Part shown: positions 3,495 through 34,581 of the stretch, piece after piece
Position numbering within the stretch: position 1 is the first letter of the stretch
Layout of the letters: every line of letters begins with the position of its first letter
Assembly: GCA_018434945.1 (NCBI GenBank)
Contig: JAHDOI010000045.1
Location: forward strand, 1 to 40,882
Source of the DNA: Selenomonadales bacterium
Lineage (GTDB): Bacteria; Bacillota; Negativicutes; Sporomusales; UBA7701
Length of the DNA: 40,882 nt
Direction of reading: 5' to 3'
Position numbers and translations under genes: made by a program
Notes under the pieces: generated by a model
What the model saw: the letters and a program-made list of their open reading frames with translations, nothing else
The model's database searches: none
What the model was told of the DNA's origin: nothing

Positions 3495-4064
3495 ATGAAA
3501 GACAGATTACTTACCCTGACAGTGCTCGGCCTGGTTTTCGCGGTTGTCCTCGCCTTCGCCGGCGTTGCGGCGGCCGCCGGGCTGCCGGGCGCCCAGTTCG
3601 AGCAACCGCTCCTGATCACCAGCGTCGGTCAGAGCGCCGACGGGCAAATGGTGCGTGTTCTCGCCCAGCGCGCTGGCCTTAACTTCACCTACGACTCCCT
3701 CGCCGGCGCCGACGCCGTTTCCGGCTACAGGACACTCGTGCTGGTTGTCGGCGGCAGCTCGAAGGGACTAGGCGCAGCCGGCATCAACCTCGACCAGGAG
3801 GAGCAGCGCGCCCAGGCTCTGATCGGCGCCGCCAAAAACGGCGGTGTCGGCGTCGTCGTCATGCACGTGGGCGGCGAAGCCCGGCGCGGCGACCTCACCG
3901 ACCGCTTCGTGCGGGCCGCGGCCCCCAGGGCCGACTATCTGATCGTCGTGGCTGACGGCAACCAGGACAACATTTTCGGCCAGATCGCCGGCGACTCCAT
4001 TCCCGTCGATTATCCCGGCACGGTCGGCGAAGCCGGCGGCTACCTGAAAGCGGCTTTCAAATAA
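3495..4064 (+). CDS. exported DUF6305-like protein
   Basis: The 189-residue protein has a clear signal peptide (MKDRLLTLTVLG... ending near AAAAGLPG, about residue 27). The mature part has alternating beta strands and glycine-rich turns (TLVLVVGGSSKGLG, GVGVVVMHVGGEARRG, DYLIVVADGNQDNIF), suggesting a Rossmann-like alpha/beta fold. I associate this pattern with DUF6305, a family of unknown function; the family name is from memory and moderately sure. GAGGAGG precedes the ATG. It is first in the cluster and directly upstream of the TRAP-type permease. As a small exported protein it could serve as the extracytoplasmic component of that transporter, which is an inference from position only. Confidence 0.75.
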   Translation: MKDRLLTLTVLGLVFAVVLAFAGVAAAAGLPGAQFEQPLLITSVGQSADGQMVRVLAQRAGLNFTYDSLAGADAVSGYRTLVLVVGGSSKGLGAAGINLDQEEQRAQALIGAAKNGGVGVVVMHVGGEARRGDLTDRFVRAAAPRADYLIVVADGNQDNIFGQIAGDSIPVDYPGTVGEAGGYLKAAFK

Positions 4065-4097
4065 TCACGTCCCGTTTCGGTTGATGGGGGTTGTTCT

Positions 4098-5366
4098 ATG
4101 TCGGAAATCATGCTCGTAGTCGTCATGCTGGCCGTCTTTCTGGCCTGCGTGCTTTGGCTGAAGCTGCCGGTCGGCCTTTCCTTGGCGGCCACCAGCGCCG
4201 CTCTGGCCGTCGCCGCCGGGCAGGGCTTGCCCCTTAGGCATCTCGTCGAGGGCATGTTCGGCTATCTTGATGTGTCGCTCGTACTCTTCACGGCGATGAT
4301 CTTCATGAAAGTGATCGAGCGCAACGGTCTGCTCGAACGCCTGACGCGGGACCTGACCTGCCGGTTCGGGCATTCGCCGCTGGCCATGCTCACCGTGCTA
4401 ACGCTCATAATCATGTTCCCCGGCGCCATAACCGGCTCTTGCACAGCCTCGGTGCTCAGCACCGGCGTGCTGCTCGCCCCCGTGCTGCTCGGCATGGATA
4501 TGCCGCGGCATATCGCGGGCGCGATAATCGCCATGGCCTCTGTGTACGGGATGATCGCCCCGCCGGTCAACATCGTCGTCATGATCATCGGCGGCGGCAT
4601 CGACATGCCGTATGTAGGGTTCGACCTTATTCTCCTGCTCGTGACCGTGCCGCTGGCGGTGCTGACGACAATCTTCCTCGGCTACCCCTACGCCCGGAGA
4701 GCCAACCTGGCCGTGCTCGTCGACAAGATCGGCGACGCCGACACAGGCCGCGGGTGGGCGCTATATCTGCCCCTCGTTCTCATCGCCGTCCTCATGGTCG
4801 GCCCCAAAGCGCTTCCCGGGGTATTCCCCGACCCGCGTATGCCGCTCACCTTTGTGCTCGGCAGTATCGCCGGCCTGTTCGTCGGCCGGAAATTTTCCTT
4901 ATCCCAGGCCGCGCGGGACGGGGTGAGGGAGATCCTTCCCGTCATCGGCATCCTCATGGGGGTCGGCATGCTGCTGCAGCTCATCACCCTGACCGGGGTG
5001 AGAGGCTATATCGCCGTCAGCAGCCTCAGCCTGCCGGCATACCTGCTGCTCGTCAGCATCGCCGTCAGCCTGCCCCTGTTCGGCGGCATCTCGGTATTCG
5101 GCGCCGCCAGCGTCCTCGGCGTGCCCTTCATCCTGGCCTTCCTCGGCCAGAACCTTATTGTCACGGCCACGGCGCTGTCGCTCATCGCCGCCATGGGCAG
5201 CTTCACGCCGCCGGTAGCGCTGACGGCGGTAATCGCCGCCCAGGTCGTGGGGGAAGAAAACTACCTGCGGATCGTGAGACCGCTTATCCTGCCCTCGCTT
5301 GTCGCCATCATCATCGGCATCCTGATGATCATGTACGCCAATCCGATCGGCAAGCTCGTCCTGTAG
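4098..5366 (+). CDS. TRAP-type transporter large permease (DctM-like)
   Basis: The 422-residue polytopic membrane protein has the usual length and about 12 hydrophobic segments of the TRAP large subunit (IT/DctM superfamily). It keeps the signature stretches FPGAITGSCTASVLSTGVLL and ASVYGMIAPPVNIVVMIIGG in the first half and GSFTPPVALTAVI in the second. These proteins move organic acids or amino acids with sodium. Usual partners DctQ (small permease) and DctP (binding protein) are not recognisable nearby; the DUF6305-like protein upstream and the 48-residue membrane peptide downstream (11-base gap) occupy their places. Given the neighbourhood, glutamate, gamma-glutamyl peptides or N-acyl amino acids are the best guesses for cargo. 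Confidence 0.88.
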   Translation: MSEIMLVVVMLAVFLACVLWLKLPVGLSLAATSAALAVAAGQGLPLRHLVEGMFGYLDVSLVLFTAMIFMKVIERNGLLERLTRDLTCRFGHSPLAMLTVLTLIIMFPGAITGSCTASVLSTGVLLAPVLLGMDMPRHIAGAIIAMASVYGMIAPPVNIVVMIIGGGIDMPYVGFDLILLLVTVPLAVLTTIFLGYPYARRANLAVLVDKIGDADTGRGWALYLPLVLIAVLMVGPKALPGVFPDPRMPLTFVLGSIAGLFVGRKFSLSQAARDGVREILPVIGILMGVGMLLQLITLTGVRGYIAVSSLSLPAYLLLVSIAVSLPLFGGISVFGAASVLGVPFILAFLGQNLIVTATALSLIAAMGSFTPPVALTAVIAAQVVGEENYLRIVRPLILPSLVAIIIGILMIMYANPIGKLVL

Positions 5367-5377
5367 GAGGGAAAGCG

Positions 5378-5524
5378 ATGATAACTGTCGTCTACCGGCT
5401 CATCGTCGTCGTTGTAGCCGTCCTCGTGGTCTGGGAGCTCTTCTCCCAGAAAGAAATCAAATGGCAGGCCAACGCCGCGCTGGTGCTCATCCCCCTTGTG
5501 CTGCGGGCCTTCATGCTCGTATAG
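5378..5524 (+). CDS. 48-residue two-segment membrane peptide
   Basis: The short gene is supported by TAGGAGG 8 bases before its ATG and by tight spacing to both neighbours (11 and 12 bases). The product has two hydrophobic stretches (VVYRLIVVVVAVLVVWELF and ANAALVLIPLVLRAFMLV) around a charged turn (SQKEIKWQ), so it should form a membrane hairpin. It is much smaller than a DctQ subunit (about 160 residues). Its location directly after the TRAP large permease suggests an accessory or stabilising subunit. I know no named family. Confidence 0.7.
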   Translation: MITVVYRLIVVVVAVLVVWELFSQKEIKWQANAALVLIPLVLRAFMLV

Positions 5525-5536
5525 GGAGGGCACGCC

Positions 5537-6652
5537 ATGGTTGGAACGAAAAAAACCGCCCTCGCCCTGCTCACGGCCGCCGTCGCGATCCTTATCCTCG
5601 TGACACCCCAGTTCACCGCCATGCACACCGCCGACACCATCAATAAAGGCCCCGGCGTCACCGCCGTCAAGATGTTGAGCGACTACTTCGCCGGCCTGAA
5701 GAATACCCCCGGCGACACGGCGGTATACGTCCTCGACAGCGGCAAGCCCGGCGGCACGGCGCTCGTCGTCGGCGGCACCCACCCCAACGAGCCCTCGGGC
5801 TACATCGGCGCCATCCTGCTTGTCGAAAAAGCGCGGCCGACCAAAGGCAAGCTGATCGTCATCCCCCAGGCCAACGCCAGCGGCTTCACCCACAACGACT
5901 ATTCCGAAGGTTCGCCGCAGCGGTTCGCGCTGACTACACCCGGCGGCGAACGCTGGTTCCGCTACGGGTCGCGGGCCACCAACCCCGTACACCAGTGGCC
6001 CGACCCCGATATCTACGTTCACGCCGCCTCCGGCCAGAAGCTGTCGGGCAGCGAGACCCGCAACCTCAACCGGGCCTATCCGGGCCGCCCCGACGGCACG
6101 CTCACCGAGCAGATCGCCTACGGCATCGTCGAACTGATCAGCCGGGAGAAAGTCAACCTGGCGATCGACCTGCACGAAGCCTCGCCGGAATATCCGGTCA
6201 TCAACGCCCTCGTCTTCCATGAACGCGCCATGGACGTGGCGGCGATCGCCGCTCTCGACCTGGAGATGGAAAAGATCAAGATCGGCCTCGAGCCCTCGCC
6301 CAAAACGCTGCGCGGCCTGTCGCACCGCGAATGGGGCGACGCCACCGGGGCGATGGCCGTGCTGATGGAAACCGCCAACCCCGCCCAGGGCCGTCTGCGG
6401 GGCGCCACTAACGAAGCGCTGGTACTCACCGGCCAGGACCGGATGTACGAGCGGGCCGCCAAACTCGGCCGGCTGTTCATCCCCTATGACAAGAACGGCC
6501 AGCCACTCAGCCTGCGGGTGGCCCGCCACGTAACCGCCACCATGGTGCTCATCCGCGACTCCTTCGAGAAAGACCCGCGCCAGGCGGTCGTCGTCACCGG
6601 GGTCCCTTCCTACCGCGAAATCGTTACCAAAGGCGTAGGCGCCTTTTTATAA
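5537..6652 (+). CDS. exported M14-type succinylglutamate desuccinylase/aspartoacylase family enzyme
   Basis: The 371-residue protein has an N-terminal signal or signal-anchor (TALALLTAAVAILILVTP). Zinc-binding elements of the AstE/AspA branch of M14 carboxypeptidases are visible: GGTHPNEPSG (His and Glu, about 76-85) and AIDLHEA (third ligand, about 210), with ETRNLNRAYPG for substrate binding. Members cleave acyl-glutamate/aspartate or terminal gamma-linked residues. It lies between the transporter peptide and the gamma-glutamyltransferase, and a smaller paralogue lies at 8492-9223. In this cluster it most plausibly trims gamma-glutamyl chains outside the cytoplasm. GGGAGGGC precedes the ATG. 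Confidence 0.85.
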   Translation: MVGTKKTALALLTAAVAILILVTPQFTAMHTADTINKGPGVTAVKMLSDYFAGLKNTPGDTAVYVLDSGKPGGTALVVGGTHPNEPSGYIGAILLVEKARPTKGKLIVIPQANASGFTHNDYSEGSPQRFALTTPGGERWFRYGSRATNPVHQWPDPDIYVHAASGQKLSGSETRNLNRAYPGRPDGTLTEQIAYGIVELISREKVNLAIDLHEASPEYPVINALVFHERAMDVAAIAALDLEMEKIKIGLEPSPKTLRGLSHREWGDATGAMAVLMETANPAQGRLRGATNEALVLTGQDRMYERAAKLGRLFIPYDKNGQPLSLRVARHVTATMVLIRDSFEKDPRQAVVVTGVPSYREIVTKGVGAFL

Positions 6653-6674
6653 AACAACGAGGGAGGTTTATCAA

Positions 6675-8387
6675 GTGAAGGGCAAGAAATTCAACATCCT
6701 CGCATGGCTGGTGATCGCCGTCTTCACCGTCGGCATCGTCGGCAACTTCAGTCTCCCAGCGTATGCCGCGGACAAGCGCGACATCGTCGCCACTCACGGC
6801 GTCGTCGCGGCGGCGCACCCGCTGGCCGCCCAGGCAGGGGTGGAAGTCCTCAAGAAGGGCGGCAACGCCTTCGACGCCGCCATCGCCACCGCTTTCATGC
6901 TCAATGTCGTGGAGCCCAACGCATCCGGCATGGGCGGCGGCGGCTTCGCCATCATCTATGTGGCCAAAGAGAAAAAGACCTACATGATCGACTACCGCGA
7001 AATGGCGCCCGCCAAGGCCACCCCCGACATGTACGCGCTTGACGAGAAAGGCAAAGTCAAGAACAACGCTACCGTTACCGGCTACTATGCGTCCGCCGTG
7101 CCCGGCATGCTGCGGGGCATGGAAATGATCCACAATAAATTCGCCACCCACAAATGGGCGGACCTCATGGCCCCCGCCATCGCCCAGGCCGAGGCCGGTC
7201 TCCCGGTGACCAGAAACCTCAACGGCATCATCGGCGATCAGATCGACCGGATGGAGAAATACTCCCCGTCGCTGGCCTGGTTCAAAAAGCACTATTTTAA
7301 AGACGGCCTTCCCCTCGACGAAGGCGATGTCCTGAAAAATCCCGAACTGACCGAATCGCTCAAACTCGTCGCCGCCGGCGGCGCCGATGTCTTCTACAAA
7401 GGCGTCATCGCCGACAAACTCGCCGCCTACTACGCGAAAAACGCCGGCGGCTGGATCACCAAGGCCGACTTGGCCGCCTATCAGGCCAAACTGCGCGAGC
7501 CTGTCACCACCACCTACCGCGGCTACACGCTCGTCACCTCGCCGCCGCCTTCCTCGGGCGGCCTCACCCTCGCCAACATCCTCAATATCATGGAAAAATT
7601 CGATGTCGCCAAAATGGGGCGCCAGTCCACCGAATTCCACCATACATTCATCGAAGCCCAAAAGCTGGCTTACGCCGACCGCGGCCGCTACATGGCCGAC
7701 ACCGACTTCGTCAAAGTGCCGATGGCCGGGTTGGTCAACAAGGACTACGCCGCCGAGCGGGCCAAAGGCATCAGCCCCGACACCGCCAATAACGGCGTCA
7801 AGCCCGGCGATCCCGGCAAATACAGCGCCGGCAGCACCACCTCCTTCTCGGTCGTCGATAAAGACGGCAACATGATCACCGTAACCCAGACCATCAACGA
7901 CTTCCTCGGCGCCTGTGTCGTGCCTGACGGGACGGGCATCCTCATGAACGACGAAATGGACGACTTTGTCACAAATAACCCCAATTCGGTCAACGCGCCC
8001 GCCCCGGGCAAACGGCCGCTCAGCAGCATCACCCCGACAATCGTCCTCAAAGACGGCAAGCCGTTCATGACCCTCGGCACCCCGGGCGGTCCCCGCATCA
8101 TCACCACCGTCGCCCAGATCATCATGAACGTCGTCGACTTCAAAATGGATCTGCAAACCGCCATCACCGACCCGCGGATGCATAACCCCAACGCCGCGGC
8201 CGCCCAGATCGAGCAGCCCATTCACGAGGCGACCGTCAACGAGCTCATGGGCTGGGGCCACAAAATCAGCCTGCGCCCCGAGCGCTCCGCGTACTTCGGC
8301 GGCGCCCAGGGCATCATGATCCTGCCTGACGGCAGCCTGCACGGCGCTGCCGACAACCGCCGCCTCGGCCAGGCGTTCGGCTACTAA
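6675..8387 (+). CDS. ggt: gamma-glutamyltransferase (GGT/CapD family), exported
   Basis: The 570-residue precursor carries a signal peptide (cleavage near SLPAYA-ADK, about residue 32). Family hallmarks are present: GMGGGGFAI, the carboxylate-binding arginine in DYREMAP, the autocleavage site with catalytic Thr388 (GSTTSFSVVDKDGN), the oxyanion serines in PLSSITPTIV and the C-terminal PGGPRI. Self-cleavage would give two subunits. The family transfers or hydrolyses gamma-glutamyl bonds. CapD, a member in Bacillus anthracis, releases or anchors poly-gamma-glutamate, which fits the pgs genes downstream. The start is GTG, 8 bases after GGGAGG. A hairpin follows the gene. Confidence 0.95.
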   Translation: MKGKKFNILAWLVIAVFTVGIVGNFSLPAYAADKRDIVATHGVVAAAHPLAAQAGVEVLKKGGNAFDAAIATAFMLNVVEPNASGMGGGGFAIIYVAKEKKTYMIDYREMAPAKATPDMYALDEKGKVKNNATVTGYYASAVPGMLRGMEMIHNKFATHKWADLMAPAIAQAEAGLPVTRNLNGIIGDQIDRMEKYSPSLAWFKKHYFKDGLPLDEGDVLKNPELTESLKLVAAGGADVFYKGVIADKLAAYYAKNAGGWITKADLAAYQAKLREPVTTTYRGYTLVTSPPPSSGGLTLANILNIMEKFDVAKMGRQSTEFHHTFIEAQKLAYADRGRYMADTDFVKVPMAGLVNKDYAAERAKGISPDTANNGVKPGDPGKYSAGSTTSFSVVDKDGNMITVTQTINDFLGACVVPDGTGILMNDEMDDFVTNNPNSVNAPAPGKRPLSSITPTIVLKDGKPFMTLGTPGGPRIITTVAQIIMNVVDFKMDLQTAITDPRMHNPNAAAAQIEQPIHEATVNELMGWGHKISLRPERSAYFGGAQGIMILPDGSLHGAADNRRLGQAFGY

Positions 8388-8402
8388 ACCCATACAGCCC
8401 GC

Positions 8403-8432
8403 GAGGGGGGAGTTGCGGCTCCCCCCTCTTGC
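8403..8432 (+). terminator. GC-rich hairpin after ggt, weak terminator or processing site
   Basis: GAGGGGGGAG (8403-8412) pairs perfectly with CTCCCCCCTC (8419-8428) across a six-base loop, followed by the modest T stretch TTGCTGTT. It lies between genes that otherwise look co-transcribed, so it may reduce read-through or set mRNA ends rather than stop transcription fully. Confidence 0.55.
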
Positions 8433-8491
8433 TGTTCAGTTCGGCAGGGGAATGGGAATAAACGGGGAATTTTTCAAGTAGAGGTGGGAAT

Positions 8492-9223
8492 ATGCGGATA
8501 TCGCTGATCGTATTGGCGCTGCTCGTCCTGGCTACGGCCGTCGCGGCGGCCGCGCCGCCGGAACAGAATATCCTCCTGCCCGGGACGCCCTACGCCACCG
8601 AGGTTTACGTCAGCCGCGGCGCCCCCGGTCCCGCCGCCCTCGTGATGGGCGGCGTCCACGGCAACGAACCGGCCGGGGCGCTGGCCGCGGAACAGGTAAG
8701 CGGGTTCGCCGTAAGCAAAGGCACCCTCATCGTCATCCCGCGGGTGAACAAGCTCGCTCTGGCCGCCGGCATCCGGACACTGCCGGAGATCGGCGACATC
8801 AACCGCGCCTACCCCGGCCGCGCTGACGGCACGCCCGCCGAACGCATCGCGGCCGCCGTCGAGGCGCTTATCGCCCAATACCGGGTGTCCCTGCTCGTCG
8901 ACCTTCACGAAGCCCGCACCTTCCACCGCCTCGACCATACTTCGCTCGGCCAGATGATCCTGTTCGCCGCCAACGACCGCAGCGCCGAGCTGGCGCTCAC
9001 GGCCATCGACCATATCAACGCCCTCATCGCCGACCCGGTGAAAAAATTCGCCTTCGGCGCCCATCCCATCCCCGGCAGCGCCGCCTACCACGCCGGCACC
9101 GCCCCCGGCCTGGCCGCCTTCACCGTGGAGACCAGCGGGCGGCAGCCCCTGGAGGAGCGCGCCGCCCAGCACGTCGCCATCGTCCGCAGCCTCCTCCGCC
9201 AGGAAGGGGTGGAAGCACAGTGA
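8492..9223 (+). CDS. second exported M14-type aspartoacylase/desuccinylase family enzyme
   Basis: The 243-residue protein has a signal peptide (MRISLIVLALLVLATAVAAAA). The zinc motif GGVHGNEPAG (about 52-61), the third ligand in LLVDLHEA (about 138) and the substrate element GDINRAYPGRADGTPAERI match the paralogue at 5537-6652. The distal half (FTVETSG) keeps the catalytic glutamate context. It is about 130 residues shorter than the paralogue, so specificity probably differs. Its stop overlaps the GTG start of pgsB (GTGA), indicating translational coupling of polymer processing and synthesis. Confidence 0.85.
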   Translation: MRISLIVLALLVLATAVAAAAPPEQNILLPGTPYATEVYVSRGAPGPAALVMGGVHGNEPAGALAAEQVSGFAVSKGTLIVIPRVNKLALAAGIRTLPEIGDINRAYPGRADGTPAERIAAAVEALIAQYRVSLLVDLHEARTFHRLDHTSLGQMILFAANDRSAELALTAIDHINALIADPVKKFAFGAHPIPGSAAYHAGTAPGLAAFTVETSGRQPLEERAAQHVAIVRSLLRQEGVEAQ

Positions 9224-10374
9224 CCGGTTTCGCCGGCGAGTACCTCGCGGCGCTCGCCGTATTCGTCCTGGTCGCCTGCCACTATGCCGCGGAGCGGCTG
9301 CAGCACAACCGCAACCTGAACCGCATCCCGCTGCGCATCCACGTCAACGGCACGCGCGGCAAATCGTCGGTCACGCGCCTGATCGCCGCCGGACTGAGGG
9401 CGGGCGGGCTAGTTGTCGTCGCCAAAACGACGGGCTCGGCCGCGCGGGTCATCCTGCCGGACGGCAGCGAGTGGCCCATGGTGCGGCGGGGACCGGCCAA
9501 TATCCGCGAACTCGTCCCTTTTACGGCCGAGGCCGCGGCCTTAGGGGCCGACGTTATCGTCGTCGAATGCATGGCGGTGCGGCCGGAGCTGCAATCCTTT
9601 GCCGAGGACAAACTCGTCAGGGCCCACATCGGCGTCATCACCACCATCAGACCCGACCATGAGGAAGTGACCGGCGACGGGCCGGGCGTCGCCCGCGCCT
9701 TCGCCGGCGCCATACCCCGGGAGGGCACGCTCGTCACCACCGCCGCCGCCCTGGACGCCCTCGCCGCTGCCGGCGCCGCCCCCTCGGGGCCGGTGCGTCT
9801 GGCTGTGCCGGACGAACTGCCGCCAGCCAGCCTCGCCGCTTTTCCAGGCGAGGTTTTCCCCGAAAACGTCGCCCTCGCCCTGGCGGTGTGCGAACTTGCC
9901 GGCGTCGACCGCGCCGCCGCTCTTAGGGGCATGCGGGCCGCCAGACCAGACCCCGGCAACGTCACCGTCGGCGAATACGCGGTCGCCGGTCGGACGTTCA
10001 CCCTCGTCAACGCCCTGGCCGCCAACGATCCCGAATCGACCCGCATCCTGTGGCAGCGGTATGCCGCCGGCAGGGCATCCGTAATACTGCTCAACTGCCG
10101 CCCCGACCGCAAATACCGCACCGTCCAGCTCGCCGAGGCGCTAGCCGCCCTTCATCGCGGCCCCTACCTCATCGCCGGCGACGGTGCGTTCGCCAGGAGG
10201 CAGCTGCTCAGACGGGGCATCGCCGCCGCCGATATCCGCGTGATCGCCCGCCCGTCCAGCCCCGCCGACCTCGCCGGCTACACCGGCGACGGACTGCTGA
10301 CAATTTTCGCGGCCGGCAACGTCCAGGGGCTGGAGAGTTTCCTCGATTGCCGGACGGCAGGAGTGAACACCTGA
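9220..10374 (+). CDS. pgsB: poly-gamma-glutamate synthase ligase subunit PgsB/CapB
   Basis: The 384-residue Mur-ligase-type amide ligase uses ATP to join glutamates through the gamma-carboxyl. An N-terminal hydrophobic helix (YLAALAVFVLVACHYAAE) anchors it. The P-loop HVNGTRGKSSVTRLIAAGL at about 40-58 is characteristic of PgsB/CapB. IRPDHEEVTGDG and VNALAANDPEST match the metal and nucleotide regions of the family. Length agrees with characterised PgsB (about 390). It starts with GTG overlapping the previous stop and is followed after one base by pgsC. No pgsA/capA is present in this cluster. Confidence 0.93.
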   Translation: MTGFAGEYLAALAVFVLVACHYAAERLQHNRNLNRIPLRIHVNGTRGKSSVTRLIAAGLRAGGLVVVAKTTGSAARVILPDGSEWPMVRRGPANIRELVPFTAEAAALGADVIVVECMAVRPELQSFAEDKLVRAHIGVITTIRPDHEEVTGDGPGVARAFAGAIPREGTLVTTAAALDALAAAGAAPSGPVRLAVPDELPPASLAAFPGEVFPENVALALAVCELAGVDRAAALRGMRAARPDPGNVTVGEYAVAGRTFTLVNALAANDPESTRILWQRYAAGRASVILLNCRPDRKYRTVQLAEALAALHRGPYLIAGDGAFARRQLLRRGIAAADIRVIARPSSPADLAGYTGDGLLTIFAAGNVQGLESFLDCRTAGVNT

Positions 10375-10375
10375 C

Positions 10376-10810
10376 ATGCACGTACTCTTCATCGGCATCG
10401 TCGCCTCGCTGCTTATCGCCGAACTGACCGGGTTTTCCCCCGGTGGCATCGTCGTGGCGGGCTATCTCGCCCTCTTCCTCGGCCACCCGGTTTGGCTCGC
10501 CGGCACGGTTGCCGCCGCGCTCGTCACGCTGGCCGCCGGCCGCCTGCTGGAAAAGCGCCTGCTCCTTTACGGCCGCCGCCAGTTCGCCGTCTACATCCTT
10601 GTCGGCATGCTTGTCGGCCAGGGGGCGATGCTCGCCACCCGCGGCGGGGGCTACTTCGACTGGGGCCTGCTCGTCATCGGCTACCTCGTGCCCGGGCTGA
10701 TCGCCCGCGACTTCGCCCGCCAGGGGATCATGCCCACGCTCCTTGCCCTGGCGCTGGCCGTCGCGCTGACCGCGCTGGCCGCGCTGGCCGGGGAGGGGCT
10801 GCTATGGTAA
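10376..10810 (+). CDS. pgsC: poly-gamma-glutamate biosynthesis membrane subunit PgsC/CapC
   Basis: The 144-residue integral membrane protein has four to five hydrophobic helices and the PgsC-type opening HVLFIGIVASLLIAELTGFSPGG followed by the YLALFLGHP region. It is the obligate membrane partner of PgsB. The TAA stop overlaps an ATG in the form ATGGTAA, a coupling arrangement. The last 20 or so bases of the gene lie in the first copy of a 59-bp tandem duplication, but its reading frame and stop are not altered. Confidence 0.9.
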   Translation: MHVLFIGIVASLLIAELTGFSPGGIVVAGYLALFLGHPVWLAGTVAAALVTLAAGRLLEKRLLLYGRRQFAVYILVGMLVGQGAMLATRGGGYFDWGLLVIGYLVPGLIARDFARQGIMPTLLALALAVALTALAALAGEGLLW

Positions 10811-10907
10811 GCCTGCCCCGCCTCGCGCTGCTGGTGTTAGCCAGCTTCGGGGAGGGGCTGCTATGGTAAGCCTGCCCCGCCTCGCGCTGCTGGTGTTAGC
10901 CAGCTTC
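10789..10907 (+). repeat. perfect 59-bp tandem duplication across the pgsC/pgsW junction
   Basis: Bases 10789-10848 and 10848-10907 are identical (60 matching positions, period 59). Each unit contains the end of pgsC, the ribosome site GGAGGGG, the ATGGTAA stop/start overlap and the first 14-15 codons of pgsW. Because 59 is not a multiple of three, the first copy opens only a 21-codon frame. The second copy supplies the functional pgsW start. Identity without any substitution indicates a recent event or an assembly error. Confidence 0.95.
10804..10869 (+). CDS. 21-residue duplication-born peptide (truncated pgsW start)
   Basis: The first copy of the duplicated unit begins with the same ribosome site and ATG as pgsW. 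It reads 14 shared residues (MVSLPRLALLVLAS), then shifts into the second copy and ends GEGLLW with a TAA that overlaps the true pgsW ATG. The stop/start overlap of pgsC and pgsW is thus repeated twice in series. Translation is plausible, since it has the same signals as pgsW. The peptide would be a short hydrophobic fragment with no known role. Confidence 0.45.
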   Translation: MVSLPRLALLVLASFGEGLLW

Positions 10908-11876
10908 CTGGTGCTCGTCTGTGCCCGAGGAACGGTCAGGCACGAGCCCGACGCCGCCTACCCTTCCATGGCCGCCGCCGTGGCTACGACCGTCAGGGCC
11001 CAGGCAGCTGTCGGCGACCGGATCATCGGCCCCGAATACACGGAAATAACCACCACCCTCGGTCCGCTCGCCGCCAAAAAACTGTCTCTCCACCCCGATT
11101 TTGCCGCCCTCGCCGTCCGTTACCTGCTGGCCGCCGGCGTCGGGCCGGGCGACCGGGTGGCCGTCAACTTCTCCGGCTCCTTCCCGGCCATCAACATCGC
11201 CGTCCTCGCCGCCATCCAGGCCGTCGGCGCCGAGCCGGCGATAACCAGCTCGGTGGGCGCTTCCACCTGGGGCGCCGGCGACCCGGCGTACACCTGGCTG
11301 GACATCGAGCAGACGCTCGCCGGCCAGGGGCTGTGGGCGTGGCGGTCGGCGGCCGCCTCGGTCGGAGGCGTCGGCGATGTCGGCGGCGGTCTGACCCCTG
11401 AAGGCGTAACAGCGGCCAGAGCCGCCATCAGCCGGGCGGGAGTGGCCGAAATGATGCCCGCCGACCTCGACGAGGCGGTGGCGCTGCGCCTGGCGGTCTA
11501 CCGGCGGGACGGACAGCTGCCGGCCGCGCTCGTCAATGTCGGCGGCAGCCACGTCATCTTCGGCCGCCGGGGCCACGAATCGCCCCTGCGGCAAGCCCTC
11601 ACCGCCGGCTACAGCCCGCGGCGGCACGTAGCCGACGGCCTCGCGGCTCCCTTCATCGACAACAACCGCCCTGTCATCCATTTCCTCAACATCGGCCAAC
11701 TGGCGGCCGTCAACGGTATCAAAGCCGACAACCCTCCGGGAACGAGCGCCGTGATGTACACGCGGACCGTGCCGGCAGCCACCCGTCTGGCGGTAACCGT
11801 CTGGCTGGCGGTTGCCTGCTCGGTGCTGTGGTACGGCGGGCGCAGGAAAGAGTGGTGGCGCGGGCCATGTCGCTGA
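10863..11876 (+). CDS. pgsW: poly-gamma-glutamate system protein, PgsW-like
   Basis: The 337-residue protein has one hydrophobic segment at each end (residues about 5-22 and 308-325) and a large domain between that is probably extracytoplasmic. The middle has VAVNFSGSFPAINIAVLAAI, a strongly conserved-looking strand-loop-helix, and VGAEPAITSSVGASTWGA. I recognise this as the accessory protein found beside pgsB and pgsC in poly-gamma-glutamate systems that lack classical pgsA (the family called poly-gamma-glutamate system protein). Its biochemical role is not known. The start is the second copy of the duplicated site, 5 bases after GGAGGGG. The stop lies inside the kinase gene start. Confidence 0.8.
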   Translation: MVSLPRLALLVLASFLVLVCARGTVRHEPDAAYPSMAAAVATTVRAQAAVGDRIIGPEYTEITTTLGPLAAKKLSLHPDFAALAVRYLLAAGVGPGDRVAVNFSGSFPAINIAVLAAIQAVGAEPAITSSVGASTWGAGDPAYTWLDIEQTLAGQGLWAWRSAAASVGGVGDVGGGLTPEGVTAARAAISRAGVAEMMPADLDEAVALRLAVYRRDGQLPAALVNVGGSHVIFGRRGHESPLRQALTAGYSPRRHVADGLAAPFIDNNRPVIHFLNIGQLAAVNGIKADNPPGTSAVMYTRTVPAATRLAVTVWLAVACSVLWYGGRRKEWWRGPCR

Positions 11877-13216
11877 CAACGATAAACTACCCTCACCTCC
11901 TTTACGGGTTCGGGCTCATCCTCCTGGGGCTGCTGGCCCCGGCGGTCCTGAGCGTCAAGGGGTTCGGCATTTTCCCCCTGATGGAGCGCAGCCTCGTCCA
12001 CGCCAGCAGCGGCGCGCTCCTCACCGCCTCCCTCAAGCTGGTCGCCCTCAACACCCTCCGCGCCCTGTCCATCTACATCGGCACACTGCTGCTCGCCCAA
12101 GGGCTCGGCACCTTCCGCACCGGCGCGCCCCGCATCCTTCTCATCCTGCCGCTGGCCGTCATACCCGCCGCCTACGAGGCAATCAAGCTGATCTACGGCA
12201 TCGCCTACGACTTCGGCATCCCCGCCATCAGTCTCACGCTGGCCATCCTCCTCATGAGCCGGCTGGAAAACATGACCCGCAGGGTATTCCACAAGCTGCT
12301 CGTCCTCGCCCTGCTGCTGTTCGGGGTCGAGTGGCTCGACACCGTGCCCCTCCTCAGCGGCTACTGGTTCGGGCGCGGCGAGATCTCCACCGATCTGAAA
12401 AAAATCGCCGCCTTCCTGGAGGCGGAAGAAATACTCAACATCACCGGCATCGCCCTGTTCATAATCTGCACCGCCAACTCCTTCATCCTCGCCCGCCTGC
12501 TCAGCGTCTACACCAAGGAACTGAAGGTCGCCGAACAGGTCCGTCTCGACAGCGAGCTCAAACTGCGGACGCTGGAGAACAGATCGCTCAGGGAGATGCA
12601 GTCGCTCGTCCACGACCTCAAGACGCCGCTCACCTCCATCCAGGGCCTGGCCGGGGTGCTGGCCGTCTCGGTCGCCGGCGAGCCGGACCGCCAGTACGCC
12701 GCGCGCATCGTCGAAGCCAGCGACAAAATGAGCAGCATGATCAGCGAGATGCTGCGCGACGACACCCGCCAGACCATCAGCGGCCGCGAACTCGTCGAAT
12801 ACGCCGCCGCCCACGTCCCCGGACTCAGCGGCCTGAGCAGCTTCCGGATCGAAGCAGCCGCCCCCCCGCCGGCGGTGGCGATCAACAAAATCAAAATGTC
12901 GCGGGCGATCGTCAACCTGCTCGAAAACGCGCTGGAAGCGGTCGGCGGGCAAAACGGCCGGGTCGGCATCCGGGTGTCGGCCAGGGACGGCCAGGCGGTC
13001 ATCGAGATAACCGACAACGGCTCGGGAATCCCTTCCGACCAATCGCAGCTCATCTGGGAACCCGGCTTCTCCACCAAAAACTCGTCCGGGTTCGGACTGC
13101 CCTTCGTCCGCGAAACAGTCGAGACGAACGGCGGCACCATCGCCATCGACAGCGTCGGCGGCCAAGGCACGCGCGTCATCATCACCCTGCCGGAGGTAAC
13201 GGGCTATGACCGATAA
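11867..13216 (+). CDS. membrane sensor histidine kinase of the pgs cluster
   Basis: The 449-residue protein has about seven hydrophobic segments in residues 8-215 and no large extracytoplasmic domain. A coiled linker (about 216-245) is followed by the H-box LVHDLKTPLTSIQG with phospho-acceptor His249, N-box NLLENALEAVG, G1 DNGSGIP and G2 GFGLPF. Sensing is probably through or within the membrane. It overlaps the pgsW stop and the response regulator start (11 bases), so the three are coupled. The start is uncertain: ATG at 11867 is chosen, but GTG at 11852 or 11855 (after AGGAAAG) and an ATG-like start at 11828 are in frame. Confidence 0.88.
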   Translation: MSLTTINYPHLLYGFGLILLGLLAPAVLSVKGFGIFPLMERSLVHASSGALLTASLKLVALNTLRALSIYIGTLLLAQGLGTFRTGAPRILLILPLAVIPAAYEAIKLIYGIAYDFGIPAISLTLAILLMSRLENMTRRVFHKLLVLALLLFGVEWLDTVPLLSGYWFGRGEISTDLKKIAAFLEAEEILNITGIALFIICTANSFILARLLSVYTKELKVAEQVRLDSELKLRTLENRSLREMQSLVHDLKTPLTSIQGLAGVLAVSVAGEPDRQYAARIVEASDKMSSMISEMLRDDTRQTISGRELVEYAAAHVPGLSGLSSFRIEAAAPPPAVAINKIKMSRAIVNLLENALEAVGGQNGRVGIRVSARDGQAVIEITDNGSGIPSDQSQLIWEPGFSTKNSSGFGLPFVRETVETNGGTIAIDSVGGQGTRVIITLPEVTGYDR

Positions 13217-13841
13217 AACGATCACCATCCTCGCGATCGACGACGACCAGGACATCCTCTTCACCCTGGCCGCGATCGGCAGGACCTACGGCTGGCGGGT
13301 GATCACCGAAAGCGACGGCCGGCAGGCGGCGGCGAAAGTCCGCGGCCTCAAGCCCGACATCATCCTCGTCGACTACCACATGCCCGGCCTCGACGGCCTT
13401 TCCACCGTGGAGCTGATTCGCACCCACGACCACACCATACCGATCATCGTCCTCACCGTCGACGAGCGGCAGGAAATCGCCGACCTCTTCCTCGACGCCG
13501 GCGCGAGCGACTTCGCCAACAAACCGATAAAGATCGCCGACCTCGCCGCCAGGATCAGAGTCCACATGCACATGAGGCAGCAGCAGGAGCAGTCGCCGGC
13601 TCCCCTCCACGACAAAGGGATCAACGAAACCACCCTGGGGCTGGTGCGGTCTTTCTGCCGCGGCGCCGCCGGCCCGTTCGCGGCCGAGGAAGTGGCCGAG
13701 GGCACCGGCCTCGCCTATCAGACCATCGTCCGCTACCTTCAGTTTCTGCAGGGCCGCAGGGAGCTCATCGCCTCGAGCAGCTACGGAAAGATCGGCCGGC
13801 CGCGCAAGAAATACCAGTGGACGGCGAAAGCGGGTCCGTGA
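13206..13841 (+). CDS. response regulator, receiver plus CitB/DcuR-like helix-turn-helix
   Basis: The 211-residue protein has a receiver domain at residues 7-120, with acidic pocket IDDDQD, phospho-acceptor Asp56 (ILVDYHMPGLDG), the threonine in VLTVDE and Lys106 (NKPIK). The C-terminal half (about 140-207) contains a winged helix with the end signature GKIGRPRKKYQW. That resembles the DNA-binding domains of CitB/DcuR-type regulators, which control carboxylate transport genes. GGAGGT 8 bases upstream supports the start. It pairs with the kinase gene it overlaps and probably controls the pgs/TRAP cluster. Confidence 0.88.
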   Translation: MTDKTITILAIDDDQDILFTLAAIGRTYGWRVITESDGRQAAAKVRGLKPDIILVDYHMPGLDGLSTVELIRTHDHTIPIIVLTVDERQEIADLFLDAGASDFANKPIKIADLAARIRVHMHMRQQQEQSPAPLHDKGINETTLGLVRSFCRGAAGPFAAEEVAEGTGLAYQTIVRYLQFLQGRRELIASSSYGKIGRPRKKYQWTAKAGP

Positions 13842-13938
13842 GAAACGGCATTAGGGCGCAAACCAGTTAAGTTCCCCGCCGCAAACGACGATATAAGAGT
13901 AAATGGTAAGGATTCTGTCGAAAAGGCAGGGAACGGCA

Positions 13939-14007
13939 ATGGAGATATTCGCCATACTGACCGTCGGGGCGGTACTGTCCAACTGGTGGGCCTGGCGGCA
14001 ACGGTGA
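13939..14007 (+). CDS. possible 22-residue membrane peptide
   Basis: The frame MEIFAILTVGAVLSNWWAWRQR is preceded by GGCAGGGA with suitable spacing and encodes one hydrophobic helix ending in a basic tail. It lies in the 286-base gap between the response regulator and the coiled-coil gene. Evidence is limited to the ribosome-site-like sequence and composition. The rest of the gap holds a GC-rich palindrome (14073-14086) and nothing else I recognise. Confidence 0.3.
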   Translation: MEIFAILTVGAVLSNWWAWRQR

Positions 14008-14127
14008 ACGCCGGCAGCCCGGTATCCTCAGCCGCGCGCTTTTCGCGTCCGCGCTGACCGGCTGGAATATTTCCCCGCGCGCGGGGTTATTCTATACTGG
14101 AATAGTGCGACGAACGGAGGCATCGGC

Positions 14128-14370
14128 ATGAACGTGCGGAGCGGGCTGGAAATCGTGGAGCTGCACAAGGAATACGAAGCCAAGATGAAGGAACTGGAAG
14201 AGGCCGCGTCGAGGCTGGAAGACCTCGGCTACACCAAAACCCTGCTGCATAACCAGATGAACAAACTCGGCGACGAGCTCAAGATACTCGAAACAACCCG
14301 TTTCCAGGCGCTCGACCCGGTCACCGTGCCCAAATCGGTCCTCGGCGGCCACGACTACTTTGTCTCGTAA
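14128..14370 (+). CDS. small coiled-coil hypothetical protein
   Basis: The 80-residue protein is charged and mostly helical, with heptad-like spacing from about residue 10 to 55 (VELHKEYEAKMKELEEAAS, then KTLLHNQMNKLGDELKILE). It has no signal peptide or membrane segment. ACGGAGG lies about 8 bases before the ATG. No family is recognised. It is monocistronic by context, with the SOS-type promoter region of dinB beginning directly after its stop. Confidence 0.65.
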   Translation: MNVRSGLEIVELHKEYEAKMKELEEAASRLEDLGYTKTLLHNQMNKLGDELKILETTRFQALDPVTVPKSVLGGHDYFVS

Positions 14371-14375
14371 CCGGC

Positions 14376-14407
14376 TTTACAAACCAGAACGTCAGTTCTA
14401 ATATAAT
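14376..14407 (+). promoter_or_regulatory. dinB promoter with LexA (DinR) box
   Basis: AGAAC-GTCA-GTTCT at 14386-14399 is a perfect GAAC-N4-GTTC Gram-positive LexA/DinR operator. It lies between a TTTACA -35-like hexamer (14376-14381) and a TATAAT -10 (14402-14407), where repressor would block polymerase. Spacer length between these hexamers is about 20, so the -35 assignment is loose. The downstream gene is dinB, a usual SOS member. Confidence 0.8.
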
Positions 14408-14420
14408 AGTAAGGATAAAT

Positions 14421-14458
14421 TCACACCGGACATACTCGTGACAGGTGTGAGTTTTTTT
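14421..14458 (+). terminator. terminator-like hairpin in the dinB leader
   Basis: TCACACC (14421-14427) pairs with GGTGTGA (14444-14450), followed by G and seven T residues. It sits downstream of the LexA-controlled -10 and 40 bases upstream of the dinB start. Transcripts from that promoter would meet it before the gene. It could act as an attenuator, or end a short SOS transcript. Confidence 0.65.
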
Positions 14459-14497
14459 GTCTAACGCGGGAAATAGCGCGGAACCGGTGGTGAGAGC

Positions 14498-15661
14498 ATG
14501 CAGCGCTGGATAATCCACGTCGATATGGACGCCTTTTTCGCCGCCGTCGAGCAGCGGGACGACCCCGCCCTCCGCGGCCGGCCGGTCATCGTCGGCGGCG
14601 TCGGCCGGCGCGGGGTCGTCAGCACCGCCTCCTACGAAGCCCGCCGCTTCGGCGTCCACTCGGCGATGCCGATGGCCGAGGCGCGGCACCGCTGCCCCCA
14701 TGCCGTTTTCATGCCCGGCGACCACCGCAAATACGCGCGGGTGGCGGGGGAGATACGGACCATCCTCGCTTCATTCTCGCCGCTGGTCGAACCCCTGTCC
14801 CTCGACGAAGCCTTCCTCGACGTCTCCGGCATGGAATGGCTCTACCGCGACCCGAAGGACATCGCCACAGCCATCAAGGCGCGCATCAGGGACGAGCTGT
14901 CCCTGACCGCCTCGGCCGGCGTCGCGCCCAACAAATTTCTCGCCAAGCTGGCGTCCGACTGGGGCAAGCCCGACGGGCTGGTCGTCGTGCGGCCGGAGGA
15001 AGTGGCCGCCTTCCTGCGGGCCATGCCCATATCCCGCCTGTGGGGGGCGGGCGAGAAAACAACCTCGCAGCTGAAGGGCATCGGCATCACCACCATCGGT
15101 CAACTCGCCGCCGCCGACGAAGCCATCCTCCGCAAGCATTTCGGCAACTCGGCCGACGACATGCGGCGGCTGGCGCGGGGCGAGGACGACCGCCCCGTGA
15201 TACCGGAACATGAGCCGAAATCGTTGGGCAACGAGATCACCTTCGACGAAGACCTCCGTTCGCGGGACGATATCGGCACCTGCCTGCTGGCCCTCAGCCA
15301 GAAGGTCGGCCGCCGGCTGCGCCAGGCCGGCTACGCCGGGCGGACGGTGACGGTCAAGATCCGCTTCGCCTCTTTCCGCACCATCACCCGCAGCCGCAGC
15401 CTCGGCGAGCCGACGCTGCTCGGCGACACCATCTACGAGACAGCCCGGGCCATCATGGACGGCGTCGAGCTCACCGAAGGCGTGCGTCTCCTGGGCGTGA
15501 CCCTGTCAAACCTGCAGATCCACGGCAGCCAGACCAGCCTGTTCGCCGGCGAAGACGACAAAAAACTCAAAGCCTCGGTCGCCGTCGACCGCCTCAAAGA
15601 CAAATTCGGCGAAGGAGCCGTCACCCGCGGCCGCCTCATGCCGCCGAAAAAGGAAAAATAA
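14498..15661 (+). CDS. dinB: DNA polymerase IV (Y-family translesion polymerase)
   Basis: The 387-residue protein performs error-prone bypass of DNA damage. The catalytic carboxylates are in HVDMDAFFAAVEQ (Asp8, Asp10) and SLDEAFLDVSG (about 103-113). The steric-gate and finger region GVVSTASYEARRFGVHSAMP and the helix-hairpin-helix thumb LWGAGEKTTSQLKGIGITTIGQL follow, then the little-finger domain. QTSLF near residue 345 is a beta-clamp binding motif, followed by an unusually long tail of about 40 residues. A LexA box upstream indicates SOS control. Start at ATG 14498 gives the conserved N-terminus; the ribosome site GGTGGTGAG is moderate. Confidence 0.96.
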   Translation: MQRWIIHVDMDAFFAAVEQRDDPALRGRPVIVGGVGRRGVVSTASYEARRFGVHSAMPMAEARHRCPHAVFMPGDHRKYARVAGEIRTILASFSPLVEPLSLDEAFLDVSGMEWLYRDPKDIATAIKARIRDELSLTASAGVAPNKFLAKLASDWGKPDGLVVVRPEEVAAFLRAMPISRLWGAGEKTTSQLKGIGITTIGQLAAADEAILRKHFGNSADDMRRLARGEDDRPVIPEHEPKSLGNEITFDEDLRSRDDIGTCLLALSQKVGRRLRQAGYAGRTVTVKIRFASFRTITRSRSLGEPTLLGDTIYETARAIMDGVELTEGVRLLGVTLSNLQIHGSQTSLFAGEDDKKLKASVAVDRLKDKFGEGAVTRGRLMPPKKEK

Positions 15662-15699
15662 AAGCAGCCCTTGGAGGGTTGCTGTGAGAATCAGAGAAA

Positions 15700-15819
15700 G
15701 GACGTTCAGAAGCCCCAGATGCAAGGCGGCTCTGGCGGGCGTGCCGCGACGCGTACTCGGAACGTACGCTAGCAAACGTCCGCCAGAACAACGCCGCAGA
15801 TGGGGCCTTATCAACGTCC
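15700..15819. repeat. palindromic structured element, copy A
   Basis: The ends GGACGTT (15700-15706) and AACGTCC (15813-15819) are complementary, and pairing continues imperfectly inward (AAGCCCCA against TGGGGCCTT). The centre is a hairpin GCGTAC/GTACGC with loop TCGGAAC (15751-15769). A related element of nearly equal length lies at 40758-40876 with compensating end changes. It sits between dinB and the convergent YkuS-like gene. A smaller hairpin (GCAGCCC/GGGTTGC, 15664-15684) precedes it without a T run. Confidence 0.75.
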
Positions 15820-15823
15820 GTAG

Positions 15824-16150
15824 CTACATGCGCCAGGGGCGGTGACGGAGGCGCGCCTCCAACTCCGCCGCCACCTGCTCGGGATGCAGCCCGGTGATGT
15901 TGAGCATAATAGCGCCAGGCAGGGTGTCGCCCAGCGCATCCTCGCCGCGGTGCCCCACGCTGATATCGGCGGACTCCAGACCGCCATGGAAAGAGGGGAC
16001 TGTCTCCGCCCGGCGGGACGAATAGAGGACGGCGTCCACATGGGCGCGGAAGCCGACGGCTTCCTGCAGGCTGATCACCTTGTAGCCTCTGGCGGTCAGC
16101 GTTTCCGCCAGCCAGGTCGCGGGATGCTGGAGGGCGACGGTTTTCTTCAT
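15824..16150 (-). CDS. YkuS/UPF0180-like small protein
   Basis: The 108-residue protein begins MKKTVALQHPATWLAETLTARGYKVISL, matching the pattern of the YkuS (UPF0180) family, in which a short N-terminal strand is followed by a helix and GY/GH-x-V. It ends with the HPEQVAAELEARL helix. These cytoplasmic proteins of Firmicutes have no established function. AAGGAA sits 9 bases before the ATG. It is convergent with dinB, and its stop lies 4 bases from repeat element A. The family assignment is by pattern and moderately sure. Confidence 0.65.
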   Translation of the reverse strand: MKKTVALQHPATWLAETLTARGYKVISLQEAVGFRAHVDAVLYSSRRAETVPSFHGGLESADISVGHRGEDALGDTLPGAIMLNITGLHPEQVAAELEARLRHRPWRM

Positions 16151-16298
16151 CTCGGTCGTTCCTTCACTGTTGATCGGCGACTGCCGCTAGTATCCCCCCG
16201 ACAGGAAAAAATATGTTGCGGCACGGCGTGATGAGGCAGGAACGGACCTGGTATTCGCCTAAAGACTTACAATAGACTGATTGGGGAGGCGATTAACG

Positions 16299-17426
16299 GT
16301 GATCAATCAACAGCGGGTGCTGGCCGAGTTTTTCGAACTTGTAAGCATCAGATGTTCGACAAGGGCTGAACGGGAAGTGGCCGATGTTGTCAAGGCCAAG
16401 TTGGCCGCTATGGGCCTTGCGGTGGAAGAAGACGACGTCGGCGGCCGAATCGGTGGCAACTGCGGCAATGTGCTGGCCTATCTCAGGGGCAACGTCGCGG
16501 GCGCGCCGGTCGTTATGCTGAGCGCCCATCTCGACTCCGTCGAGCCCTGCGGCGGCATCAAGCCGCAGCTCAAGGACGGGGTGATAACCTCCGGCGGCGA
16601 CACCGTGCTGGGGGCTGACGACAAATCCGGGGTAGTCGCCATCCTCGAGGCTATCAGGGTTATACGCGAAACCGGCGCCGCCCACGGCGACATCCAGGTG
16701 GTGTTCACCGTGGCCGAGGAAGGCGGCGTCAACGGCTCCAAAAACATGAACCGCGAACTGCTCGCGGCCGACTTCGGCTATGTCCTCGATTCCGGCGGCG
16801 CTCCCGGGAGGATAATCAACGCCGCTCCCGGCCAGGACAGCATCAAGGTCATCATCCGCGGCAAGACCGCCCACGCCGGCGTGGCCCCCGAAGAAGGCAT
16901 CAACGCCATCGTCGTGGCCGGCAAAGCCATGGCCGAACTGCGCCAGGGGCGGATCGACGACGAAACGACCGCCAACATCGGCATCATCAAGGGCGGCCAG
17001 GCCACCAACATCGTGCCCGACTACGTCGAGATCGCCTGCGAAGCCCGCAGCCGCAACAAAGCGAAGCTCGCCGCCCAGACAAAGCACATGGTCGAAACCT
17101 TCGAGCGGGTGGCCGCGGCCAACGGCGCCAAAGCGGAAATAACCGTCAAGACCGCTTACGACCCCTACGTGCTGACCGCCGAAATGCCGGTAGCGGCCAT
17201 GGCCCGCCAGGCGGTGGAAAGCATCGGCCTTACGCCCGTATTCGAAGCCACCGGCGGCGGCAGCGACGCCAACTTCTTCAACGCCTACGGCGTACCGTCA
17301 GCCGTGTTGGCCACCGGCATGTCCAAGGTGCACACCACCTCCGAATTCATCAAGGAAGCCGACTTGTACAAGACGGCCGAGCTGGTCGTGGCGATCATCA
17401 AGACTGCCGCCGGAGTTAAGAAATAA
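16299..17426 (+). CDS. PepT-like M20-family metallopeptidase
   Basis: The 375-residue cytoplasmic dizinc peptidase has metal ligands in LSAHLDSVEP (His, Asp), LGADDKSGV (bridging Asp), TVAEEGGVNGSK (catalytic Glu and ligand), YVLDSGG and, at the C-terminus, KVHTTSEFI. The central dimerisation insert begins KVIIRGKTAHAGVAPEEG. This arrangement fits the tripeptidase T-like subgroup, so it probably removes residues from short peptides. The frame opens at a TTG at 16281, but GGGGAGG lies inside that extension and 9 bases before GTG 16299, which is taken as the start. A terminator follows. Confidence 0.9.
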   Translation: MINQQRVLAEFFELVSIRCSTRAEREVADVVKAKLAAMGLAVEEDDVGGRIGGNCGNVLAYLRGNVAGAPVVMLSAHLDSVEPCGGIKPQLKDGVITSGGDTVLGADDKSGVVAILEAIRVIRETGAAHGDIQVVFTVAEEGGVNGSKNMNRELLAADFGYVLDSGGAPGRIINAAPGQDSIKVIIRGKTAHAGVAPEEGINAIVVAGKAMAELRQGRIDDETTANIGIIKGGQATNIVPDYVEIACEARSRNKAKLAAQTKHMVETFERVAAANGAKAEITVKTAYDPYVLTAEMPVAAMARQAVESIGLTPVFEATGGGSDANFFNAYGVPSAVLATGMSKVHTTSEFIKEADLYKTAELVVAIIKTAAGVKK

Positions 17427-17458
17427 TGCCTTAGAACGGCCATTCGCATCTCAAACAG

Positions 17459-34493: not shown

Positions 34494-34581
<88 letters not shown>

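Follow-up and report, generated by a model that had tools for sequence, protein, structure and literature searches.

We analysed a stretch of DNA of 40,882 bases from a Selenomonadales bacterium (assembly GCA_018434945.1), hereafter the window, which is the entire contig C24 (JAHDOI010000045.1) of a 3.8-Mb genome. It carries a cluster of 11 genes, all on the plus strand between positions 3495 and 13841, which encode in order an exported DUF6305 protein, a DctM-like permease, a 48-codon open reading frame (ORF; its product is here called pep48), the M14-type hydrolase M14a, a gamma-glutamyltranspeptidase (GGT), a second M14-type hydrolase (M14b), PgsB, PgsC, PgsW, a sensor histidine kinase and a response regulator (Table 1). 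An initial annotation, made from the sequence alone, had described these genes as a set for making, trimming and importing poly-gamma-glutamate; Pfam and NCBIfam scores showed that all the genes it named are present on the plus strand. The intergenic gaps, in cluster order, are 33, 11, 12, 22, 104, -4, 1, 52, -10 and -11 nt, a spacing that reads as operon-like, and the three negative values bear out the overlapping stops and starts that had been reported. Since the arrangement is seen again in other genomes, as detailed below, it goes beyond chance. The N termini, read by eye with a simple hydropathy count that also served for the membrane segments, suggest signal-peptide-like starts for DUF6305, GGT and M14b and an N-terminal hydrophobic segment for M14a.

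Table 1. Genes and other features of the cluster, with positions in the window and the supporting profile matches
Feature	Positions	Strand	Evidence
DUF6305 exported protein, single alpha/beta domain	3495-4064	+	PF19823 157 bits (cut-off 25)
DctM-like permease, ~13 hydrophobic segments	4098-5366	+	PF06808 53.5 bits (cut-off 23.8), residues 14-412
pep48, 48-residue membrane peptide	5378-5524	+	Two hydrophobic segments spanning nearly the entire peptide; C-terminus IPLVLRAFMLV
M14a, M14-type (AstE/AspA-like) zinc amidohydrolase	5537-6652	+	PF24827 35.2 bits (cut-off 25)
GGT, exported gamma-glutamyltranspeptidase	6675-8387	+	PF01019 544.7 bits; TIGR00066 523 bits (cut-off 358)
11-pair G+C-rich hairpin	8403-8428	+	Between GGT and M14b, where the gap is longest
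M14b, exported M14-type zinc amidohydrolase	8492-9223	+	PF24827 60.4 bits (cut-off 25); PF17033 37.8 bits
PgsB/CapB, Mur-ligase-like gamma-glutamyl ligase	9220-10374	+	TIGR04012 323.3 bits (cut-off 222.7)
PgsC/CapC membrane protein	10376-10810	+	PF14102 99.2 bits (cut-off 27)
PgsW	10863-11876	+	TIGR04332 'poly-gamma-glutamate system protein' 238 bits (cut-off 100)
Sensor histidine kinase, ~6 N-terminal membrane segments	11867-13216	+	HisKA + HATPase_c
Response regulator	13206-13841	+	REC PF00072 83 bits; HTH_64 24.6 bits (cut-off 27)

The synthesis part of the cluster begins with PgsB and PgsC, the latter of which falls slightly below the cut-off of a second model, TIGR04011 (93.6 against 96.45 bits). 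They are followed by PgsW, a protein with a membrane helix at each end (AlphaFold2 pLDDT 92.3), which by its position occupies the place of PgsA in the cluster. The window version of PgsW does not have a stretch of about 18 residues, around the motif IDxxxDPNETGL, that is present in most other aligned members. The reported absence of PgsA was upheld: the PgsA/CapA domain PF09587 was not found among ten cluster proteins, and its sole match in the window genome is weak (39.6 bits) and lies on a different contig. In 25 genomes with PgsW, likewise, the contig that carries PgsW shows no PF09587 match within 150 kb of it; 20 of these genomes have a match somewhere. Judged from these matches, the synthesis part belongs with pgsBC loci of the TIGR04332 type and not with those of the pgsBCA type.

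For comparison of gene-neighborhoods two sets of loci were used. Set 1 comprises 60 stretches from genomes of the same phylum, selected for DUF6305 or PgsW, such that its DUF6305 linkage is partly due to selection; it covers part of 83 DUF6305 matches. Set 2 comprises the best 80 of 346 PgsW relatives, in named loci selected by PgsW alone. Apart from L118 of set 2, which is identical to L100 of set 1 and was part of the training data, the two do not overlap at 90% identity over 1000 bases, and set 2 itself includes close kin (L131/L136, L132/L134, L158/L197 and L168/L172).

The permease is a distant relative of DctM as judged by its profile scores: it scores only 15.5 bits against TIGR00786, far below the cut-off of 268, and its sole match of solved structure is a weak one to the isethionate TRAP permease DctMQ (9pym, E=0.014). 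The ORF of 48 codons directly 3' of it belongs to a family of 46-60 codons with a conserved C-terminal consensus VLIPFxLRxLxIK, in which Arg43 is invariant among 29 diverse members. The window peptide has no Pfam match above cut-off, the alignment of 29 members matches nothing in NCBIfam and gives two stray Pfam hits, and a precomputed Pfam domain is recorded for none of 35 homologues. Members of the family lie directly 3' of a DctM-like gene in 34 of 36 cases in set 1 and in all 41 cases in set 2, the set-1 exceptions being two weak DctM matches (183-190 bits), with one further case at an edge. Strong DctM-like genes have DUF6305 no more than 400 nt upstream in 24 of 34 cases in set 1 and 33 of 38 in set 2, and an M14 gene within 5 kb in 34 of 35 and 37 of 37 (set 2 without L118), the lone set-1 gene without a nearby M14 lying at the edge of the fetched stretch. 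The constant neighbors of the permease are pep48 and an M14 gene, mostly with DUF6305 as well, a tie between DUF6305 and the permease that the initial annotation, which had listed both DUF6305 and the peptide, had not drawn. On its conserved sequence and its pairing with the DctM-like gene pep48 is a real component of the system, and we propose that it would be a small subunit of the permease.

DctQ, the small subunit of TRAP transporters, has about four membrane helices. It is absent among ten cluster proteins and is matched neither by pep48 nor by its 28 aligned relatives, the search having been confined to these and not extended genome-wide; similarly, no DctP or TAXI binding protein was found among the cluster proteins, again with no genome-wide search for DctP, and DUF6305 belongs to a separate Pfam family. 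Because the TIGR00786 cut-off is missed and two defining TRAP parts are absent from the cluster, we do not file the transporter as TRAP but as TRAP-like in its working; of the earlier label, a TRAP-type large permease, the PF06808 assignment stands.

The two M14 enzymes were confirmed as desuccinylase/aspartoacylase homologues that keep the expected catalytic residues: H82, E85, H213 and E278 of M14a and H56, E59, H139 and E213 of M14b are each conserved in at least 95% of 79 and 21 homologues, respectively. By analogy with the AspA family we take these His and Glu residues to be the zinc ligands and the catalytic Glu. The closest solved relatives of M14b are deacetylases of the DoeB type (2qj8, 56 bits; 6twl, 50 bits), with weaker likeness to the secreted protein 4wcm/4q6m (32/29.5 bits) and to the cell-shape carboxypeptidase of PF17033, which presumably acts beside a gamma-D-Glu link. 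In the GGT, the position of residue 388 is where solved enzymes have the start of their small chain, and it is the expected catalytic Thr, conserved in at least 95% of 47 homologues. The previous assignment to a GGT/CapD family holds for GGT, by the family score and this Thr, but not for closeness to CapD: the large chain scores mostly 229-279 bits against solved bacterial GGTs versus 146 bits against CapD, which by sequence makes it an ordinary GGT outside the CapD subgroup. The catalytic parts of all three enzymes look intact from their sequences. GGT lies within 6 kb of a strong DctM-like gene in 18 of 35 (set 1) and 17 of 37 (set 2) cases, and a genome assembled as a single contig (G227) has the cassette described below without any GGT match; because GGT is thus not obligatory, the M14 enzyme rather than GGT is the constant hydrolase. 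GGT genes vary in number: L087 has three in tandem (12901-18960) behind one DUF6305-DctM-pep48-M14 run, L064 has two, and L104 has two plus a small piece.

The DUF6305-DctM-pep48-M14 run recurs as a cassette. Runs like that of the window were found in L058, L116 and L117, in L100 from DctM onward (cut by a contig end) and, from set 2, in Clostridium tetanomorphum (L119), Clostridium pascui (L120) and a Tissierellia genome (L122). Gene counts among the 80 set-2 loci, which include some fragments and weak kinase or regulator matches, are PgsB 76, PgsC 74, M14a 43, pep48 41, DctM 40, DUF6305 38, GGT 22, regulator 21, kinase 20 and M14b 15. Loci titled Bacteroidetes/Bacteroidales, Deltaproteobacteria, Myxococcales and Planctomycetota commonly have PgsBCW with no cassette in reach; the Desulfobacteraceae locus L145 does have the cassette. 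In a whole-genome search of 48 hand-picked PgsW genomes from the 80 loci, pep48 was found in 21, in some away from PgsW, and in none of the other 27.

Evidence for a tie between cassette and polymer genes comes from whole genomes. Among 398 genomes of the same phylum DUF6305 occurs in 46, PgsW in 26 (25 above the family cut-off) and pep48 in 25, or in 23 genomes with 55 copies at E<=1e-10, two marginal partial matches being set aside. All 23 of these genomes, which span 13 families, also have PgsW and DUF6305 (contingency table 23/0/3/372; Fisher p = 2e-34, a statistic that, like the other associations here, takes no account of kinship). DUF6305 lies within 6 kb of 51 of the 55 pep48 copies, and the remaining four are on contigs on which no DUF6305 was found. 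PgsW is single-copy in each of the 23 genomes, the two matches in G278 being parts of a single frame, but pep48 ranges from one copy to nine, with nine copies in G114 and seven in G200. At least one cassette lies within 12 kb of PgsW in 18 of the 23; counted singly, 37 of the 55 cassettes have no PgsW at this distance on their own contig, in some cases because the contig breaks. The three genomes with PgsW only comprise two (G218 and G267) in which a contig end cuts the cluster and one (G180) with a PgsW fragment (65 bits with our own model) and no other sought cluster gene in a 3-kb locus. G180 (locus L056) has no cassette, and G049 and G088 of the same genus have both, a pattern that looks like joint loss; in another genus G225 has both and G148 neither.

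The association appears again in the Thermotogota, to which the Kosmotogales genome with locus L174 belongs. At a threshold of E<=1e-6 (three weaker matches set aside) 18 of 103 genomes have pep48, the same 18 have DUF6305, 17 have PgsW, and 16 have both pep48 and PgsW; in G664 and G666 PgsW and all four pep48 copies lie on one contig, each copy more than 150 kb from PgsW. Among 198 genomes from the phylum to which Treponema vincentii belongs, pep48 was found in two, T. vincentii itself, which had been chosen for its PgsW, and G619 (Spirochaetota). Because they co-occur by genome though often far apart, the transporter and polymer genes appear to share one job. The expectation that genes for making, trimming and import belong together is thereby sustained, the set being linked in 18 of 23 genomes and co-occurring when unlinked, and not always apart.

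The AlphaFold2 model of DUF6305 (pLDDT 89.4) is a single Rossmann-like domain, for which comparison with solved structures gave no clear relative; the nearest named protein, of Anaeroselena agilis (Negativicutes, Acetonemataceae), is 87% identical. The elements GQSAD, GGSSKG, His124 and RRG are near-invariant among 30 aligned members and would suit an acidic ligand. DUF6305 occurs without PgsW or pep48 in 23 genomes of the same phylum. In loci from 21 of these it abuts a kinase/regulator pair like that of the window in 19 cases; in the other two, the pair is near but in opposite orientation (L083) or there is none (L084). At least two of three oligopeptide-ABC-transporter genes, assigned through Pfam checks on three such proteins, are near in 17 of the 19 loci versus one of the 42 other set-1 entries (including the window) and one of the 80 set-2 loci. 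A model of the sensor region, based on 22 kinases from the fetched loci and searched against 80 hand-picked genomes, matched in 33 of 46 genomes with DUF6305 versus 3 of 34 others, with one copy in each of the 36; two of the three exceptions are contig-broken PgsW genomes. Because it is paired both with this kinase and with differing transporters, we regard DUF6305 as an exported ligand-binding protein that likely informs the kinase and serves the adjacent uptake system. DctP is reportedly used in a sensory pathway with DctS/DctR, which would be a precedent for a binding protein informing a kinase. The kinase/regulator pair, which had been presented as the cluster's own system, is in the cluster but is not polymer-specific, given that relatives of it accompany DUF6305 next to ABC transporters for peptides. 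For the kinase, the ATG at 11867 may be the start codon in preference to the GTG at 11828, and the proposed likeness of the regulator to CitB/DcuR is no more than suggestive, its match to the DpiA-like HTH_64 being below the cut-off.

Several other observations concern DUF6305. In L084 (9441-10013) and L085 (9837-10544), both of one genus, it lies near an amidohydrolase-family gene (Pfam check on L084 only) without DctM and without this kinase, a third context for the domain. One open frame in L164, around position 15850, reaches 456 bits against DUF6305, a score well beyond that of one domain, and several copies may be fused in it. The DUF6305 and PgsW alignments both show the motif order TSxGxS ... 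GG; comparison of their profiles gave a probability of 7.8%, too weak for a claim of kinship.

Based on these observations we propose that the cluster makes a gamma-glutamyl polymer, trims it and takes the pieces back, a reading to which we give roughly even chances. The cytoplasmic ligase PgsB, with PgsC and with PgsW standing in for PgsA, would make a gamma-glutamyl chain, probably gamma-linked polyglutamate, and pass it out. Outside the membrane M14a, M14b and GGT would cut the chain, and DUF6305, replacing the usual binding protein, might bind the products and hand its ligand to the DctM-like permease and to the kinase. With pep48 taking over the job of DctQ, glutamate or short gamma-glutamyl pieces would re-enter through this reduced TRAP-like permease, whose inward direction we infer, and the kinase/regulator pair, likely reading DUF6305, would control the cluster. 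Trimming of this kind has precedents in PMC4497714: in Bacillus subtilis GGT removes units from gamma-polyglutamate (gamma-PGA), and PghP, a known gamma-PGA hydrolase, is a zinc peptidase related to carboxypeptidase A. The polymer cycle of the initial annotation is in this way partly supported.

Several facts weigh against this proposal. Up to nine cassettes per single PgsW is odd for a single-polymer substrate, and synthesis can do without recapture, as 27 of the 48 picked PgsW genomes have no peptide match. DUF6305 is not tied to the polymer, since 23 of its 46 genomes have neither peptide nor PgsW. The kinase type is absent in 10 of the 23 cassette genomes and present in G003, which has neither DUF6305 nor PgsW. 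G227 has the cassette without a GGT match. In the Thermotogota two genomes (G665 and G667) have the cassette without a PgsW match, in fragmented assemblies with contigs numbered into the hundreds, and one (G695) has PgsW without pep48.

In the main alternative the polymer would serve as a donor of gamma-glutamyl groups and not as food. GGT would then transfer these groups to amino acids, amines or peptides outside the cell, with each cassette importing a different gamma-glutamyl conjugate or the group released by its own M14 enzyme. The scheme resembles the Meister (gamma-glutamyl) cycle, in which an external GGT is combined with uptake of gamma-glutamyl units or amino acids, but with polyglutamate in place of glutathione as the gamma-glutamyl source. 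It would better explain many cassettes per synthase: per genome there is one PgsW but as many as nine cassettes and as many as eight GGT matches, GGT matches occur in 22 of 23 cassette genomes versus 10 of 25 hand-picked others, unlinked cassettes bring their own M14 gene and often a GGT, and DUF6305 with its kinase stands elsewhere beside peptide ABC transporters. Yet the M14 enzymes look exported, so that conjugates would be split before uptake, GGT is near only about half of the strong DctM-like genes, and the single-contig cassette genome has no GGT match; we consider this alternative rather unlikely. In its fullest form one PgsBCW polymer would feed up to nine DUF6305-DctM-pep48-M14(-GGT) cassettes that tag and import amino acids or peptides through a new three-part secondary transporter, with DUF6305 as the binding protein that also reports to a dedicated kinase and a hairpin peptide of about 50 residues as the small subunit, a scheme that we consider similarly unlikely.

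The co-occurrence could also arise if pgsBCW made a classical polyglutamate capsule or surface layer with turnover and the cassette were an unrelated amino-acid scavenger, their hosts being shared through one anaerobic lifestyle. The many loci and genomes with pgsBCW and no cassette fit such a layer, and a known capsule locus has a GGT-family enzyme (PMC4497714). However, linkage within 12 kb in 18 of 23 genomes, joint presence across 13 families and again in the Thermotogota, and the contrasts within genera (G225 against G148; G049 and G088 against G180) speak for a functional tie, and we find a shared lifestyle alone unlikely. Finally, the DctM-like protein and pep48 might form an export path for the gamma-glutamyl chain or its oligomers, doing the presumed job of PgsA, which is missing from these clusters and is thought to mediate polymer transport (PMC5751247). 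The strong co-occurrence of permease and synthase would accord with this, but the 27 PgsW genomes without a peptide match imply that export can do without the peptide, and every cassette has an M14-type hydrolase, with several cassettes per genome; an export role therefore seems very improbable. The proposal of synthesis, trimming and recapture remains the one we prefer.

The cluster combines features of several known systems. With the pgsBCA and capBCA(D,E) loci of Bacillus (PMC5751247, PMC4497714) it shares PgsB, PgsC and, as a prediction for the window, extracytoplasmic trimming of the polymer by a GGT-family enzyme and other gamma-glutamyl hydrolases. Unlike those loci the window has PgsW and not PgsA, two M14-type enzymes and a kinase/regulator pair, and it adds the DctM-like permease, DUF6305 and the 48-residue peptide. 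TRAP transporters such as DctPQM and SiaPQM (PMC8276074) likewise have a large subunit of the DctM kind with adjoining genes for an exported protein and a small membrane protein; in place of DctP and DctQ the cassette has a single-domain DUF6305 of about 190 residues and a two-segment peptide of 46-60 residues. Gamma-PGA hydrolases of the PghP type are described in PMC4497714 as zinc peptidases of the carboxypeptidase A/M14 kind that act on gamma-glutamyl links. The M14 enzymes of the window differ in matching the AstE/AspA-like PF24827 and no PghP family. For PghP we assume the Pfam family to be PF05908. No publication describing this gene set was found, as judged by title and abstract, in a search that left most subscription literature outside.

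Inside the cluster an Rfam search gave no family at gathering score. The hairpin is a possible internal processing or attenuation site by its sequence; a consensus scan, which gave 14 terminator-like sites versus a mean of 9.2 in shuffles, lends it weak support. It splits an uptake half (DUF6305 to GGT) from a synthesis half (M14b to regulator) and may let the two be dosed separately. Elsewhere in the window, genes for tRNA-Arg(CCT), tRNA-Ser(CGA), tRNA-Ser(GGA) and a small SRP RNA lie inside about 2.2 kb (33907-36086).

If the proposal is true, many anaerobes would make polyglutamate as one half of a nutrient cycle outside the cell and not as a capsule, and in PgsW there would be an alternative to PgsA with a wide distribution. 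A function could then be assigned to DUF6305, as a ligand protein common to a permease and a kinase. It would also mean that a class of TRAP-like transporters with a subunit of about 50 residues has been overlooked, perhaps since the peptide is so short.

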